A DNA stretch of 64,000 bases from Oscillospiraceae bacterium (lineage in GTDB: Bacteria > Bacillota > Clostridia > Oscillospirales > CAG-272), in NCBI GenBank assembly GCA_015064155.1, contig SVST01000008.1:1-64000 (forward strand), read 5' to 3'. This document shows positions 2,856 to 43,882 of this stretch, in pieces. Below the pieces are notes generated by a model, which searched no databases, was not told the DNA's origin, and worked only from the letters and a program-made list of their open reading frames with translations. The translations under genes were made by a program, and so were the position numbers. Position 1 is the stretch's first letter. The number at the start of each line of letters is the position of its first letter.

Positions 2856-3004
2856 AGCTTTGTGTATGATTCCTTTTGTGCAACAGTTCCTTTTTTCTAT
2901 CCAAGCCGACAGGAATGGATGCCCCCCATTTGGGACGAATTGCTCGGGTGCTGATGATTGTAAGATGCGAGATGATTGTTTCTCATAAATATTGGCGAAA
3001 CGAC

Positions 3005-3033
3005 TTGCATTATATAAAAAATTATGATACAAT
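3005..3033 (+). promoter_or_regulatory. Promoter of the retron
   Basis: TTGCAT (3005-3010) and TACAAT (3028-3033) with a 17-bp spacer. Predicted transcription start is near 3039-3041, exactly at the left arm (a1) of the candidate msr-msd RNA. Confidence 0.7.
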
Positions 3034-3038
3034 AAAAA

Positions 3039-3271
3039 CAGAACAACAGTGTATTTCGGTTTCTACGAAAGGGATGACGAGTCGTCATCTTTTCACTCAT
3101 ATTGATCGTATTCGCGGCACAAGTCCTACAAAAGCTTTTCTCGAAAGCTTTTGCTTAACGGACTTGTTCCGTTCAGCCTAACCGCGCCACTGTAGTCACC
3201 GCAAGGCTCCGCACGCTTCACCTTGCTAAACTACACCTCTGCGATTAGCCATACAAATTCGTGTTGTTCTG
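3039..3271 (+). ncRNA. Candidate retron msr-msd non-coding RNA
   Basis: This 233-nt region lies between a promoter and the reverse transcriptase, the standard place for a retron template RNA. Its ends are complementary: a1 CAGAACAACA (3039-3048) pairs perfectly with a2 TGTTGTTCTG (3262-3271). After a1 come two short hairpins typical of msr: TTTCG/CGAAA (3054-3070) and GATGACGA/TCGTCATC (3073-3089). The msd half holds ACAAGTCC/GGACTTGT (3119-3126 with 3160-3167) enclosing AAAAGCTTT/AAAGCTTTT (3130-3152), and a compound stem TGTAG, GCAAGG with CCTTGC, CTACA (3191-3235). The priming guanosine would be G3049 or G3051, just after a1. Boundaries and the msr/msd junction are inferred by eye. Confidence 0.72.
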
Positions 3272-3294
3272 AAAAATCGGGAAAGGAGAGCTGT

Positions 3295-4206
3295 ATGATC
3301 GTTTACAAAGAACTGGCTTCAATTGAGCAAGATCTGGGGTTTTCGGCGAAAACCTTGTACGGATTGAGCAATCGTCTTGAAAAACACTATCATACTGTGT
3401 ACGTTCCGAAGAGTGACGGAACCAAACGGAAGCTCTCCGTTCCCGATTTGATTTTAAAATTGGTACAAAAATCGATCGCCGACAACATTCTTGTTCAATA
3501 TCCGATTTCAAGATATGCCAAAGCATATAAGGTAGGAAGCAACGTTCAAAAAAATGCACATCCGCACGTAGGAAAAAAGAAGCTTCTGAAGCTGGACATA
3601 GAGGGGTTTTTTGATCATATTTTGTATTCACAGGTCAAGGACATTGTTTTCTATCAAGAAAAATACGCAGAGCCCATTCGGATCCTTTTAACGATGCTTT
3701 GTTATTATCACGACTCCCTTCCGCAAGGAGCACCGACCTCACCTGCGATTACGAATATTATTATGTATGATTTTGATGAAACGGTTGGGGCATTTTGCGA
3801 TTCTAAAAATATTGCATACACAAGATATTGCGACGATATGACCTTTTCGGGCGATTTTTCCGAAAAGGAGATGATCGGCTTTGTAAAAAACGAGCTATCC
3901 AAGCTTGGGCTGCATTTGAAAAAACGCAAAACGGCAGTCATTCCTGCGACAAAGTGTCAATGTGTAACCGGGATCGTCGTGAATGAAAAAATGAATCTCA
4001 CAAAGGATTACAAAAAGAAGATTCGTCAAGAAATGTATTTCATCAAGAAATTTGGACTTGACGGACACTTAAAGAAAATGGGTGTATCCGACAAGGAGCA
4101 ATATCTTCTGTCCCTCAAAGGAAGAATCGCTTACGTGCTTCAAACAATTCCGAATAACGACGAATTTACGGAATATAAAAAAATTCTACACTCCATTCGG
4201 GTTTAA
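3295..4206 (+). CDS. Retron-type reverse transcriptase
   Basis: A 303-aa reverse transcriptase that would copy part of the upstream RNA into branched msDNA. Visible motifs: NAHPH (87-91), matching the retron-specific NAXXH of region X; LDIEGFFD (100-107) with the first catalytic Asp; LPQGAPTSP (142-150); YCDD (178-181) in place of the common YADD; and VTG (224-226) of retron region Y. Length fits stand-alone retron RTs, and there is no maturase or endonuclease domain, which argues against a group II intron. The ATG at 3295 follows GGAAAGGAGAG; an in-frame start at 3223 would lie inside the RNA. It starts 24 bp after the a2 arm. No fused effector domain is seen. Confidence 0.92.
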   Translation: MIVYKELASIEQDLGFSAKTLYGLSNRLEKHYHTVYVPKSDGTKRKLSVPDLILKLVQKSIADNILVQYPISRYAKAYKVGSNVQKNAHPHVGKKKLLKLDIEGFFDHILYSQVKDIVFYQEKYAEPIRILLTMLCYYHDSLPQGAPTSPAITNIIMYDFDETVGAFCDSKNIAYTRYCDDMTFSGDFSEKEMIGFVKNELSKLGLHLKKRKTAVIPATKCQCVTGIVVNEKMNLTKDYKKKIRQEMYFIKKFGLDGHLKKMGVSDKEQYLLSLKGRIAYVLQTIPNNDEFTEYKKILHSIRV

Positions 4207-4393
4207 AAGAGTCGAGTGGGATTGAGTTGCCATTTTGCCCTTTTTGTTTTTATTTGTTCTTTATTGTTTGGCTGCGCCAAAAGAAAAATAGAAGCTCAAA
4301 GATTGCTTTTTGGCATATAGCTTCAAGAAAGGCGGTGCAACGGTGAAAGAAAAAGCAACGATTGCGGAAAGATCTCCAAATGCAAGAGGAAAA

Positions 4394-4807
4394 ATGAAAT
4401 TTCCCTCATTTGTTTTTATCTTGGGTTGTATCATACTTGTTTTTACAGGCTGTACGATAGCTCCCGATGCACCATCCGAAGGGATTTGGTATTGTGAGGA
4501 ATTAAAGCTTGCGATCGAGTTTGAAGGAAGAGAAGCTTCTGTTTCCTCATACGATGAAAAACTATCTCATATGGATTTGCAGCTTAGAAATTGGATTGAC
4601 GGTGGGGTTGATATTGTATATCAAAATGAAGAGGGACAGATCGTTGAAATATACAGCGGCTGGAGAAAATCCAAGCGCAACGATACGTTTGTCATCCGGC
4701 TTTATCGAAAAGCAAACCCGGAAGACAATTACCAAACACAAATAGAGCTTAATGATGAAAAACATACGTTTGTCAAAATAGAAAGTTATGATGAAATAAA
4801 GAAATAA
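4394..4807 (+). CDS. Small predicted lipoprotein downstream of the retron RT
   Basis: A 137-aa protein with a short basic N-terminus, a hydrophobic stretch and the lipobox FTGC at residues 17-20, so it is probably lipid-anchored outside the membrane. The mature part is beta-rich, with SEGIWYCEELKLAIEF near its start, and matches no family I recognise. The ATG at 4394 follows AGAGGA and gives a normal signal peptide; a GTG at 4343 with GGCGG upstream would add 17 residues. It is 187 bp after the RT with no clear terminator between, so cotranscription is possible. Whether it belongs to the retron is unknown. Confidence 0.7.
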   Translation: MKFPSFVFILGCIILVFTGCTIAPDAPSEGIWYCEELKLAIEFEGREASVSSYDEKLSHMDLQLRNWIDGGVDIVYQNEEGQIVEIYSGWRKSKRNDTFVIRLYRKANPEDNYQTQIELNDEKHTFVKIESYDEIKK

Positions 4808-4951: not shown

Positions 4952-5680
4952 ATGTCTATTGGAGAAACTATTGCTAAACTGAGAAAAGAAAAGGGTCTTA
5001 CGCAAGGGGAGCTTGGAGGACGGCTTGGGGTGTCCAATCAGGCGGTTTCCAAATGGGAATCGGGAATGACAGCCCCTGATATTATGTTATTACCGATATT
5101 GGCTGACGAGTTCGGTTGTTCGATTGATCGGTTGTTTTCAAGAGAGGGCAAATGCGAAGCGAAGCCCGAAATTCATTACGATCACTGTGCCCGGTTTCCT
5201 TGGCCCGATGATACCACCATTCGCGGGGTGGTTTGCGAGGGAAGAAAAATCTTGAAATGTGACGCACTGGTTGATCGATTTACGTTTGAGATCATAGGCG
5301 ATGCCAAGAACGTACAAAGTGAATGTAATATCGAAGTCGACGGAAACGTATCAGGCGGATGCAAAGCCGAGGGCGATATCCATGCCAATGGCAACGTATC
5401 GGGTGGATGTACGGCAGGTCGTGACATTGTTATAGCAGGTCATCTTTCCGGTGGATGCAATTGCGGATCTTCGGTCACGGTAGGTGGGAGCTTGTCAGGT
5501 GCTTGTACCGCGGGCGGAGAAATCACTTGTGGCGGAAATCTTTCGGGAGATATCTTGTGCGGCGGTGACGTAGTAGTGCGTGGTGACGTAGAATCCGAAA
5601 AGATCAAGGGGAACGTCATCTGTAGCTCGCTAAAATGCGAAAAGGTTGAGGGAGATGTCATTTTGACAAAAGGCAGCTAA
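4952..5680 (+). CDS. XRE-family HTH fused to a bactofilin-like beta-helix
   Basis: A 242-aa protein. Residues 5-60 are an XRE helix-turn-helix. Residues about 90-130 form a linker, and 132-211 are five consecutive repeats of exactly 16 residues (pattern N/H/S-V/L-S-G-G-C then A-G-x-D/E-I), followed by degenerate turns to 240. Such G- and V-rich periodicity is typical of right-handed beta-helices such as bactofilin-like or polymer-forming domains. Cysteines recur at the same position (137, 153, 169, 185). The fold suggests DNA-binding coupled to self-assembly or metal/redox sensing, but that is inference. A TATAAT with a weak TTTACT lies upstream; the next gene starts 38 bp downstream. Confidence 0.8.
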   Translation: MSIGETIAKLRKEKGLTQGELGGRLGVSNQAVSKWESGMTAPDIMLLPILADEFGCSIDRLFSREGKCEAKPEIHYDHCARFPWPDDTTIRGVVCEGRKILKCDALVDRFTFEIIGDAKNVQSECNIEVDGNVSGGCKAEGDIHANGNVSGGCTAGRDIVIAGHLSGGCNCGSSVTVGGSLSGACTAGGEITCGGNLSGDILCGGDVVVRGDVESEKIKGNVICSSLKCEKVEGDVILTKGS

Positions 5681-7451: not shown

Positions 7452-7529
7452 GGTGGGATTAGCACAGTTGGTTAGCGCGTCAGGTTGTGGCCCTGAAGGT
7501 CGTGGGTTCGAATCCCATATCTCACCCCA
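7452..7529 (+). tRNA. tRNA-His (GTG)
   Basis: Acceptor GTGGGAT/ATCTCAC with the extra 5' G (7452) opposite C73, as is diagnostic for tRNA-His. The anticodon is GTG and CCA is encoded. Its last 11 bases form the left end of a 31-bp perfect palindrome with the downstream sequence, and its 3' half is the source of the repeats at 7573-8088. Confidence 0.95.
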
Positions 7530-7582
7530 ATAGAAAGAGTGGACACCGATTTCGGTGTCCACTCTTTCTATTGGGGTGAGAT
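7519..7582 (+). terminator. 31-bp palindrome that includes the tRNA-His 3' end
   Basis: Positions 7519-7549 are perfectly complementary to 7552-7582 with a two-base TT centre. The inner part acts as a plausible terminator hairpin for the tRNA operon. The outer ATCTCACCCC is the acceptor strand and CCA of tRNA-His itself, so an inverted copy of the tRNA 3' end sits directly downstream. No clean T run follows. Confidence 0.7.
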
Positions 7583-7700
7583 TTACGCGACATATTCGAA
7601 CCCATGCAAAAGCGAAGCGTTGCCAATAACGCGCGTAAAGAAAGCAAACCGGGACAGGAATGCAACGCGCGTTCGGGTTCAGAATCCCATATCTCACCCC
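7573..7700. repeat. tRNA-His-derived inverted-repeat unit A
   Basis: A 128-bp unit that begins with GGGGTGAGAT and ends with ATCTCACCCC, and has ATTCGAACCCA and TGGGTTC-like T-arm sequence inside the ends in inverted orientation. The termini are therefore two facing copies of the tRNA-His 3' end around a GC-rich core. The core shares GCAAAAGCGAAGCGTTGCC with units B and C but diverges afterwards. No coding function is credible. Confidence 0.8.
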
Positions 7701-7754
7701 AAATAGAAGAACAGCATGCCTTTTGGCATGCTGTTCTTCTATTTGGGGTGAGAT
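7691..7754. repeat. 30-bp palindrome joining units A and B
   Basis: 7691-7720 pairs perfectly with 7725-7754 around TTTT. The outer 10 bp on each side are tRNA-His-derived termini of units A and B. The inner arm AGCATGCC/GGCATGCT differs from the hairpin after the tRNA, so the spacer hairpin sequence is not conserved but the palindromic plan is. Confidence 0.85.
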
Positions 7755-7903
7755 TTACGCAATATATTCGAACCCAAGCAAAAGCGAAGCGTTGCCGATA
7801 ACGCGCGGCGGCAAGGTGCCGCACCCAACAAAAGGTGTTTTTCGGGGAATTCAAGTCACGTAAAGAGGGCGCGCGCCTGGGTTCAGAATCCCATCTCTCA
7901 CCC
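7745..7903. repeat. tRNA-His-derived inverted-repeat unit B
   Basis: A 159-bp unit with the same GGGGTGAGAT start as unit A and a tRNA-like right end (GGGTTCAGAATCCC then CTCTCACCC). It is nearly identical to unit C (offset 184 bp), with three substitutions noticed. Its core contains GGCGGCAAGGTGCCGCACC hairpins. Confidence 0.85.
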
Positions 7904-7928
7904 TTTGGGGCATGCTGTTCTTCTATTT

Positions 7929-8088
7929 GGGGTGAGATTTACGCAATATATTCGAACCCATGCAAAAGCGAAGCGTTGCCGATAACGCGCGGCGGCAAGG
8001 TGCCGCACCCAACAAAAGGTGTTTTTCGGGGAATTCAAGTCACGGAAAGAGGGCGCGCGCCTGGGTTCAGAATCCCATATCTCACCCC
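7929..8088. repeat. tRNA-His-derived inverted-repeat unit C
   Basis: A 160-bp near-copy of unit B, so B and C form a tandem duplication of 184 bp that includes the CATGCTGTTCTTCT spacer arm. Between B and C the left half of the spacer palindrome is deleted, which dates the duplication after loss of that arm. It ends with ATCTCACCCC 37 bp before the stop codon of the convergent operon. Confidence 0.85.
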
Positions 8089-8125
8089 TTGAGAGGCATC
8101 CTCTTCTTTGATTTTTACATAACGG

Positions 8126-38020: not shown

Positions 38021-38374
38021 GTAACAGCTTCGTCTGTAAGCCGGGTTCTGTCTTAAACGGCCATCAATCTGCGCGTCGCGTCACCGTGACGCTTCAGGAG
38101 TTCTCCTGTGCCACCCCCAAGACTGTGTCGGACAAACGCTTGTTGGGGTGTTGCTTCGGATAGGGTTTACAGCGGACCTATGTTACCATAGGAACTGGTG
38201 AGCTCTTACCTCGCCTTTCCATCCTTACCGCTTGCGCGGCGGTTTCTTTCTGTTGCACTTTCCCGACGGTTACCCGTGGCTGACGTTATCAGCTATCCCG
38301 TCCTGTGAAGCCCGGACTTTCCTCACGGTAATACCTTACGGCACCATACCGCGCGGCCGTTCGGCGGAGCTGTC
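38021..38374 (-). ncRNA. rnpB: RNase P RNA, class A
   Basis: The catalytic RNA that removes tRNA 5' leaders. On the minus strand the conserved GAGGAAAGTCCGGGCTTCAC lies near the 5' end, and ACAGAACCCGGCTTACAG near the 3' end. P1 is ACAGCT/AGCTGT. The layout is the ancestral A type, unlike the B type of Bacillus. About 354 nt; the 5' end is set from the promoter and the 3' end from the P1 pairing. Confidence 0.95.
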
Positions 38375-43725: not shown

Positions 43726-43780
43726 CAATTTACGATAGCGATGAAAAAAGCGTCGACTTTCCTTTCTCGCTCGTCTATGG

Positions 43781-43863
43781 AAATCTCCCTACGCCGGCAT
43801 TATCCGTATCAGGTTATAGGGTTCGGCAAAGCCATCTCAGCCGTCACTCGGACAGCACCCCCG
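43781..43863 (-). promoter_or_regulatory. TPP (THI-box) riboswitch aptamer
   Basis: On the minus strand the conserved parts appear in order: GGGGTGCTG, GGCTGAGATGG, ACCCTATAACCTGAT, and GGATAATGCCGGCGTAGGGA. TPP binding should promote termination and lower thiT expression. Confidence 0.96.
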
Positions 43864-43882
43864 ATTTTATGCGGTTGCATTG

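Follow-up and report, generated by a model that had tools for sequence, protein, structure and literature searches.

An Ec107-like retron from an Oscillospiraceae genome that appears to travel without a linked effector gene

Current descriptions usually present retrons as tripartite systems, composed of a reverse transcriptase (RT), an RNA, and an effector or toxin. The portion of the literature drawn on here defines a retron RT by NAXXH (region X), VTG (region Y), and YXDD, which reads YCDD in Ec107, and describes a process in which the two arms of the RNA pair, the RT binds an msr stem, and the 2'-OH of a G primes copying of the msd, with the template being trimmed by RNase H (PMC6868368). 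For effector-bearing retrons, the relevant part of a second source states that the complex keeps the toxin in check; the same part describes Retron-Sda1, a III-A1-like RT lacking PRTase and WH genes whose neighbours defend without Retron-Sda1, as well as Retron-Bth1, for which no effector is apparent (PMC12548924). As far as these excerpts reach, Retron-Sda1 and Retron-Bth1 are the nearest published cases that we found to the effector-less retron reported below. The literature searched, with some key retron papers lying outside it, yielded no paper on an Ec107-like group by that name, nor on pyrE-linked msDNA.

Here we describe a retron located in a 64,000-nt stretch of an Oscillospiraceae bacterium genome (contig SVST01000008.1 of GCA_015064155.1; hereafter the window), for which a sequence-only reading had proposed a complete retron. 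Its features are collected in Table 1; relatives are referred to by genome (G) and locus (L) numbers where needed.

Table 1. Features of the retron unit, in window coordinates
Feature	Position	Strand	Basis and remarks
Retron cassette	2987..4217	+	blastn 85% match to nearest relative G016 (L235) and boundary alignments; G016 flanks otherwise differ
Promoter, sigma-A type, TTGCAT-17-TACAAT, weak by consensus	3005..3033	+	Raw sequence; -35 box 3005-3010, -10 box 3028-3033
Arm a1, 5' inverted repeat, CAGAACAACA	3039..3048	+	Raw sequence; conserved in relatives
Predicted 2'-5' branching G	3049	+	Directly 3' of a1; A and G invariant in 26 rows; rule from the part of PMC6868368 used here
msr hairpin A (UUUCG...CGAAA)	3054..3070	+	82.6% of cells paired; double changes in 5/5 pairs
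msr hairpin B, likely recognised by the RT; 9 bp, AGU loop	3071..3091	+	96.2% of cells paired; double changes in 7/9 pairs
Predicted RT-DNA, ~159 nt, 3' end uncertain	3103..3261	-	107 nt counted back in the E. coli element, carried over by eye
msd stem	3108..3254	+	Helices 3108-3111/3251-3254 (89.0% of cells paired), 3178-3181/3245-3248 (msd base, 90.4%), and 3192-3195/3231-3234 (msd middle, 93.3%)
Extra hairpin	3119..3170	+	Stems 3119-3126/3160-3167 and 3129-3139/3143-3153; window and six closest relatives
Arm a2, 3' inverted repeat, TGTTGTTCTG	3262..3271	+	Raw sequence; conserved in relatives
Ribosome-binding site AAGGAGAG	3283..3290	+	Raw sequence
Retron reverse transcriptase, 303 aa, Ec107-like	3295..4206	+	PADLOC, Pfam, phmmer, alignment, tree, dN/dS

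The cassette, its reverse transcriptase, and their genomic sites

The RT reading frame opens with an ATG behind the ribosome-binding site and runs for 303 codons plus a stop. All three motifs picked out by the sequence-only reading are present in the translation (N87-A-H-P-H91, Y178-C-D-D181, and V224-T-G226) and conserved across 21 aligned RTs, in which YCDD and VTG are invariant, as are A88 and H91 of NAXXH, with N87 nearly so. The best PADLOC model is RT_Ec107-like (E 2.8e-123), followed by RT_III-A (1.3e-99), and the 25 families listed among the 69 matched are all retron RT models. Pfam assigns RVT_1, the best solved chain by sequence is the retron Ec86 RT (phmmer E 1.1e-27), and a group II intron model reaches 2.1e-18, at 66.6 bits against a cut-off of 300. 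Two NCBIfam toxin-subunit matches, each covering ~30 RT residues, fell far below their cut-offs and were set aside as chance.

The RT tree contained 98 rows (quick search, SH-aLRT support with no bootstrap, and no group II, DGR, or Abi RTs among the rows). Relatives comprised 20 selected regions, a set that omits G312, the cut or broken G025 and G194, and weaker matches, and wider relatives drawn from the best 80 of 575 matches, from which L055, L062, L063, and L068 were removed as copies of loci already included. The window RT falls in a clade of 62 rows, namely 61 loci and E. coli Ec107 (SH-aLRT 89), which also includes Pseudocitrobacter, Leminorella, Budvicia, and Yokenella; its nearest rows come from genomes of the same genus and the same family. 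Judged by its sequence, the unit is a genuine retron that joins the Ec107-like branch as a new member. Codon comparisons place the RT under purifying selection, with a dN/dS of 0.094 against G016 and of 0.06-0.07 against G007, G064, and G089 at dS >2, two more pairs being saturated. A clear RT relative was found in 5/35 genomes of the genus (its own included, and one on a cut contig).

Both the promoter with its 17-bp spacer ahead of the first arm and the perfect complementarity of a1 and a2 over 10 bp, ahead of the RT, lie in the raw sequence where the earlier reading had placed them, and transcription would start at a1. This promoter site agrees with consensus at 8/12 positions by our own count; the promoter scan favoured a different placement, also at 8/12. 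Across the 26 loci of the RNA alignment described below, the best-scoring promoter site has its -10 box 4-8 nt 5' of a1 in 16, and in the other 10, the window included, it is not at this distance. A gap of 23 nt separates a2 from the RT start codon. Shuffling the same two stretches produced an arm pair of at least 10 bp in 15/5000 cases, so that the arms are modest evidence on their own.

Comparison with G016, whose RT is 86% identical, showed DNA similarity that begins at 2987 and ends at 4217, except for an intergenic repeat at 2756-2854 that is also found near the G016 retron. This confinement delimits a bare unit of ~1.23 kb that consists of promoter, RNA, and RT. No empty site with both flanks was found among relatives of the upstream gene (G011, G024, G001, G030) or of the downstream gene (G004), hence the cassette is best regarded as putatively mobile. 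Its DNA matched nothing in phage or plasmid collections, and the best RT protein identities among the matches listed were 41.5% for phages, 38.6% for plasmids, and 38% for viral contigs (best 80).

A relative in Pseudocitrobacter led to an E. coli locus with the same best PADLOC model, RT_Ec107-like. Matches to this locus were found in 373/5426 complete E. coli genomes, one per genome and on the chromosome, and the two inspected copies (L241, L242) are flanked by pyrE and slmA. We take this element to be Ec107 itself, from the name of the model and the published passage on Ec107. The retron stands directly behind pyrE, a housekeeping phosphoribosyltransferase gene, in E. coli and Pseudocitrobacter. 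K-12 has no retron and keeps pyrE, followed by a 36-bp palindromic pyrE-slmA gap, which agrees with the palindromic 34 bp that Retron-Eco5 (Ec107) replaces according to the excerpt used (PMC6868368). No pyrE-like gene was found within 5 kb at the other clade loci searched, and pyrE proximity was thus taken as a common site. Ec107-like retrons were also observed in Enterobacterales of the genera Pseudocitrobacter, Budvicia, Leminorella, and Yokenella (L071, L073, L079, L080, L087). The K-12 palindrome raised the idea of terminators as insertion targets, for which no clear enrichment was seen: terminator-like sites occurred upstream at 10/58 loci vs 16/158 controls, and downstream at 16/58 vs 107/438.

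Several other features were noted in the window. A repeat array at 7494-8091 extends from the 3' end of a tRNA-His gene (7453-7529), with four copies of a ~35-nt unit resembling the tRNA tail and perfect inverted repeats of 30-31 nt (7519-7549/7552-7582 and 7691-7720/7725-7754); it may stem from successive insertions at the end of the tRNA gene or from degenerate copies of the tRNA. An intergenic direct repeat of 152 nt (99%) occupies 1-152 and 268-419, of which parts 86-205 and 353-417 also match G011. The minus strand carries a bacterial class A RNase P RNA (38021-38372) and a TPP riboswitch (43769-43872).

Architecture and distribution of the msr-msd RNA

The RNA alignment comprises 26 RNAs from 31 inspected loci, out of the 61 loci of the clade. 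The arm search selected for complementarity and gave extra weight to an AG following the first arm; helix 1 is thus partly circular, unlike the other four helices, and the position of the branching G partly selected. The arms of L045, L046, L049, and L053 were placed by hand, and L061, L064, L067, L070, and L074 were left out because the search chose another pair, although the model described below later found all five. Five helices recur: the arms, paired in 99.6% of cells, msr hairpins A and B, and the base and middle of the msd stem (Table 1). Double changes occur in 25/31 pairs, none of 500 shuffles scored as high on any of five measures, and pairing reaches 93.9% of cells in register vs 38.6-51.3% with partners slid. 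The hairpins that had been reported between the arms are therefore present and kept with compensatory changes in the relatives, and this persistence of arms and hairpins is decisive where the arm pair alone was not. The fold of 3039-3294 was also more stable than all 200 shuffles (z -3.58). Helix 3108-3111/3251-3254 is absent from the minimum-energy fold of the window RNA and shows double changes in one pair of the alignment. The context of the branch is CAGT in the window and TAGC in many relatives; for validated retrons, the part of PMC6868368 consulted gives mostly TAGC, with CAGC and others.

A covariance model (R1) was built from the 26 RNAs and run on 78 sources at a threshold of E 0.01, with the gap to the RT checked. 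Among the 35 clade loci outside the training set, 29 had a match that passed this threshold no more than 170 nt ahead of the RT. Outside the clade, an RNA in this position and at the same threshold was found in 2/36 loci (L113, L129). No adjacent match at E 0.01 was obtained at six held-out loci (L072, L075, L077, L091, L097, and L084), where L091 has a match at E 0.017, that of L097 lies 1.7 kb away, and L084 has 21 nt of upstream sequence. Besides that of L097, stray matches fell on the minus strand within the L065 RNA and, more weakly, in L132, L078, and L059. Within the genus, 4/35 genomes have a match (own included), each with an RT and each as a single copy, no extra copies appearing among 78 candidates scored per genome.

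The sequence-only reading had likened the RNA to no named retron and suggested that its msDNA may be new. Rfam indeed gave no match to the window RNA, even at E 10; R1, however, which was built on relatives of the window, detects the RNA of the enterobacterial Ec107-like retrons and matches two E. coli Ec107 loci (E 8e-9 and 3e-8, these E-values being rough). This points to a diverged relative of the Ec107 RNA rather than an unrelated new msDNA.

The window and its six closest relatives (G016, G007, G064, G003, G089, and G382) carry 52-73 nt at the site of an extra hairpin, where the other 19 RNAs have 0-3 nt, and by sequence comparison the hairpin is a lineage-specific feature of this group. 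Its cells are 86.2% paired vs 21-61% when slid. Double changes occur in 3/22 pairs, a level reached by 70/500 shuffles, and 431/500 reach its number of pair types; support hence comes from conservation more than from covariation. The outermost msd helix (3108-3111/3251-3254) encloses the hairpin, which is probably inside the reverse-transcribed part. The Ec107 RT-DNA is presumably 107 nt long, as the name of the retron indicates, and if this length is counted back from a2, the DNA of the E. coli element would end shortly beyond hairpin B; the corresponding position in the window was read by eye from the R1 alignment. Folded as DNA, the predicted window product would form two hairpins (z -5.86).

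Neighbouring genes and alternative readings

Neighbouring genes were clustered within 2.5 kb on each side (phmmer, E 1e-3) wherever 1.5 kb or more of sequence was available in both directions, i.e. at 51/61 loci in the clade and 30/36 outside. No neighbour family of the clade recurs at more than 5/51 loci, and the largest one has no fixed position. The same clustering outside the clade, as a positive control, recovered a ~290-aa gene at a fixed position in 17/30 loci; PADLOC identified it in examples as PRTase_III-A, and its neighbour as WH_III-A. Overall, a PRTase occurs at 0/61 clade loci, including 10 with <1.5 kb on one side where a neighbour could be hidden, vs 18/36 loci outside. From these gene neighbourhoods, the Ec107-like branch appears to travel without the usual retron toxin gene. 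The description of the window unit as a complete retron accordingly stands in the classical sense, with a promoter and an msr-msd RNA upstream of the RT, complementary arms, and a G beside the first arm, but not in the tripartite sense, which calls for a linked effector gene, nor in that of type III-A, with PRTase and WH genes upstream. We consider it about 90% probable that this is a stand-alone Ec107-type retron, forming an RT-RNA-DNA complex without a dedicated linked effector.

Four Flavobacterium loci (L103, L105, L106, L110), whose RTs fall outside the Ec107-like clade, also have no PRTase and share flanking genes, and may represent a further branch without effector that occupies a single site in the chromosome.

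Among the alternatives, an effector acting in trans, such as a host protein or a type III-A PRTase encoded at a distance from the retron, survives best, and we regard it as rather unlikely. The PRTase and WH genes upstream in the nearest loci outside the clade speak for it, as does the enterobacterial retron's place behind pyrE, itself a phosphoribosyltransferase gene, albeit a housekeeping one that K-12 keeps without any retron and that is not found near the other clade loci examined. Two of the five PADLOC PRTase_III-A models, run on seven retron-bearing genomes, found nothing in the whole window genome, which is 86% complete, so that the assembly might simply lack the gene for such an effector. 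They gave one weak 58-residue match in G016 (1.6e-4) and none in the other five, and the model behind the weak match is also positive in 4/14 control genomes.

Far less probable is a tripartite retron whose effector is one of its neighbours, either the XRE-TPR regulator at 1681-2748 or the lipoprotein at 4343-4807. In PADLOC, type VI retrons do have an HTH model for their partner, HTH_VI, which the XRE-TPR protein matches at 1.1e-10, but a second XRE gene (4952-5680) also matches it at 1.4e-8, and XRE proteins occur across the genus, with 16 matches in the window genome and between 4 and 44 in each of 35 genomes. The XRE neighbours are thus best seen as background. Apart from XRE regulators and from spurious ORFs that overlap the RNA, the seven closest retrons have no neighbouring genes in common. 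Neither candidate is found in the 9.7 kb around the G016 retron, the lipoprotein has a match in 3/35 genus genomes (own included), and both were rejected as partners. In the product of the second XRE gene, the HTH domain is fused to a glycine-rich region, which matches Bactofilin below the threshold.

We give equally little credit to a decaying remnant that lost its effector and is drifting: its patchy presence in the genus and want of a partner gene would fit, but the low dN/dS, the invariant YCDD and VTG in 21 RTs, and the compensatory changes of the RNA indicate selection. That the locus is no retron at all, and instead a group II intron, DGR, or Abi RT beside a chance inverted repeat, has the rate of chance arm pairs in its favour and is very improbable in view of the RT scores on retron and group II intron models, the match to the Ec86 RT, the clade shared with Ec107, the covarying RNA, and its detection at held-out loci.

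Proposed mechanism and comparison with described retrons

For a stand-alone retron of this type, the DNA synthesis, branch point, RT-DNA ends, and biological role that we infer would be as follows. A single transcript starting at a1 would carry both the msr-msd RNA and the RT; a1 and a2 would pair, and the RT would bind hairpin B. Priming would take place from the 2'-OH of G3049, with the template beginning just 5' of a2, and the RT would copy the msd stem back to ~3103, leaving a branched RNA-DNA molecule bound to the enzyme. The resulting complex would most likely act in a phage or stress response, either by itself or in partnership with a factor of the host or an effector encoded elsewhere. 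A wider reading, which we hold tentatively and at somewhat less than even odds, is that Ec107-type retrons form a whole lineage of effector-less units of RT and RNA, moving as ~1.2-kb cassettes and working by means of the RT-DNA complex itself, and that the RT-DNA of the window sub-lineage is two-armed because its second hairpin, of 52-73 nt, would be reverse-transcribed along with the usual msd stem.

The interest of this locus lies in an effector-less branch rather than in the existence of one more retron. A branch that is selected, widespread, and devoid of a linked toxin turns retron function without an effector into a directly testable question, and the cassette is small enough for transfer to a laboratory host. 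In addition, the RNA alignment provides a usable covariance model for Ec107-type msr-msd RNAs, for which Rfam gave no match here.

Among described systems, Retron-Eco1 (Ec86) provides the closest solved RT structure by sequence, with region X and VTG, a comparison made at the level of the RT; for its accessory protein, the part of the source used predicts an NDT type (PMC8989520). Both the RT models and the tree make type III-A retrons, with PRTase, WH, and RT, the nearest relatives that carry an effector; they differ from the clade in the PRTase found at half of the loci outside it and at none within. The closest likeness is to Retron-Eco5 (Ec107), with which, as far as it is covered by the excerpt of PMC6868368, the window retron shares the best RT model, the clade, YCDD, the lack of an accessory ORF, an RNA detected by R1, and an intergenic cassette. 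It differs from Ec107 in its shorter arms (10 bp, against 17-18 bp for the RNAs of E. coli and Pseudocitrobacter), in its extra 52-nt hairpin, in the phylum of its host, and in its setting, the two inspected Ec107 loci lying at pyrE-slmA whereas the Clostridia copies have differing neighbours.
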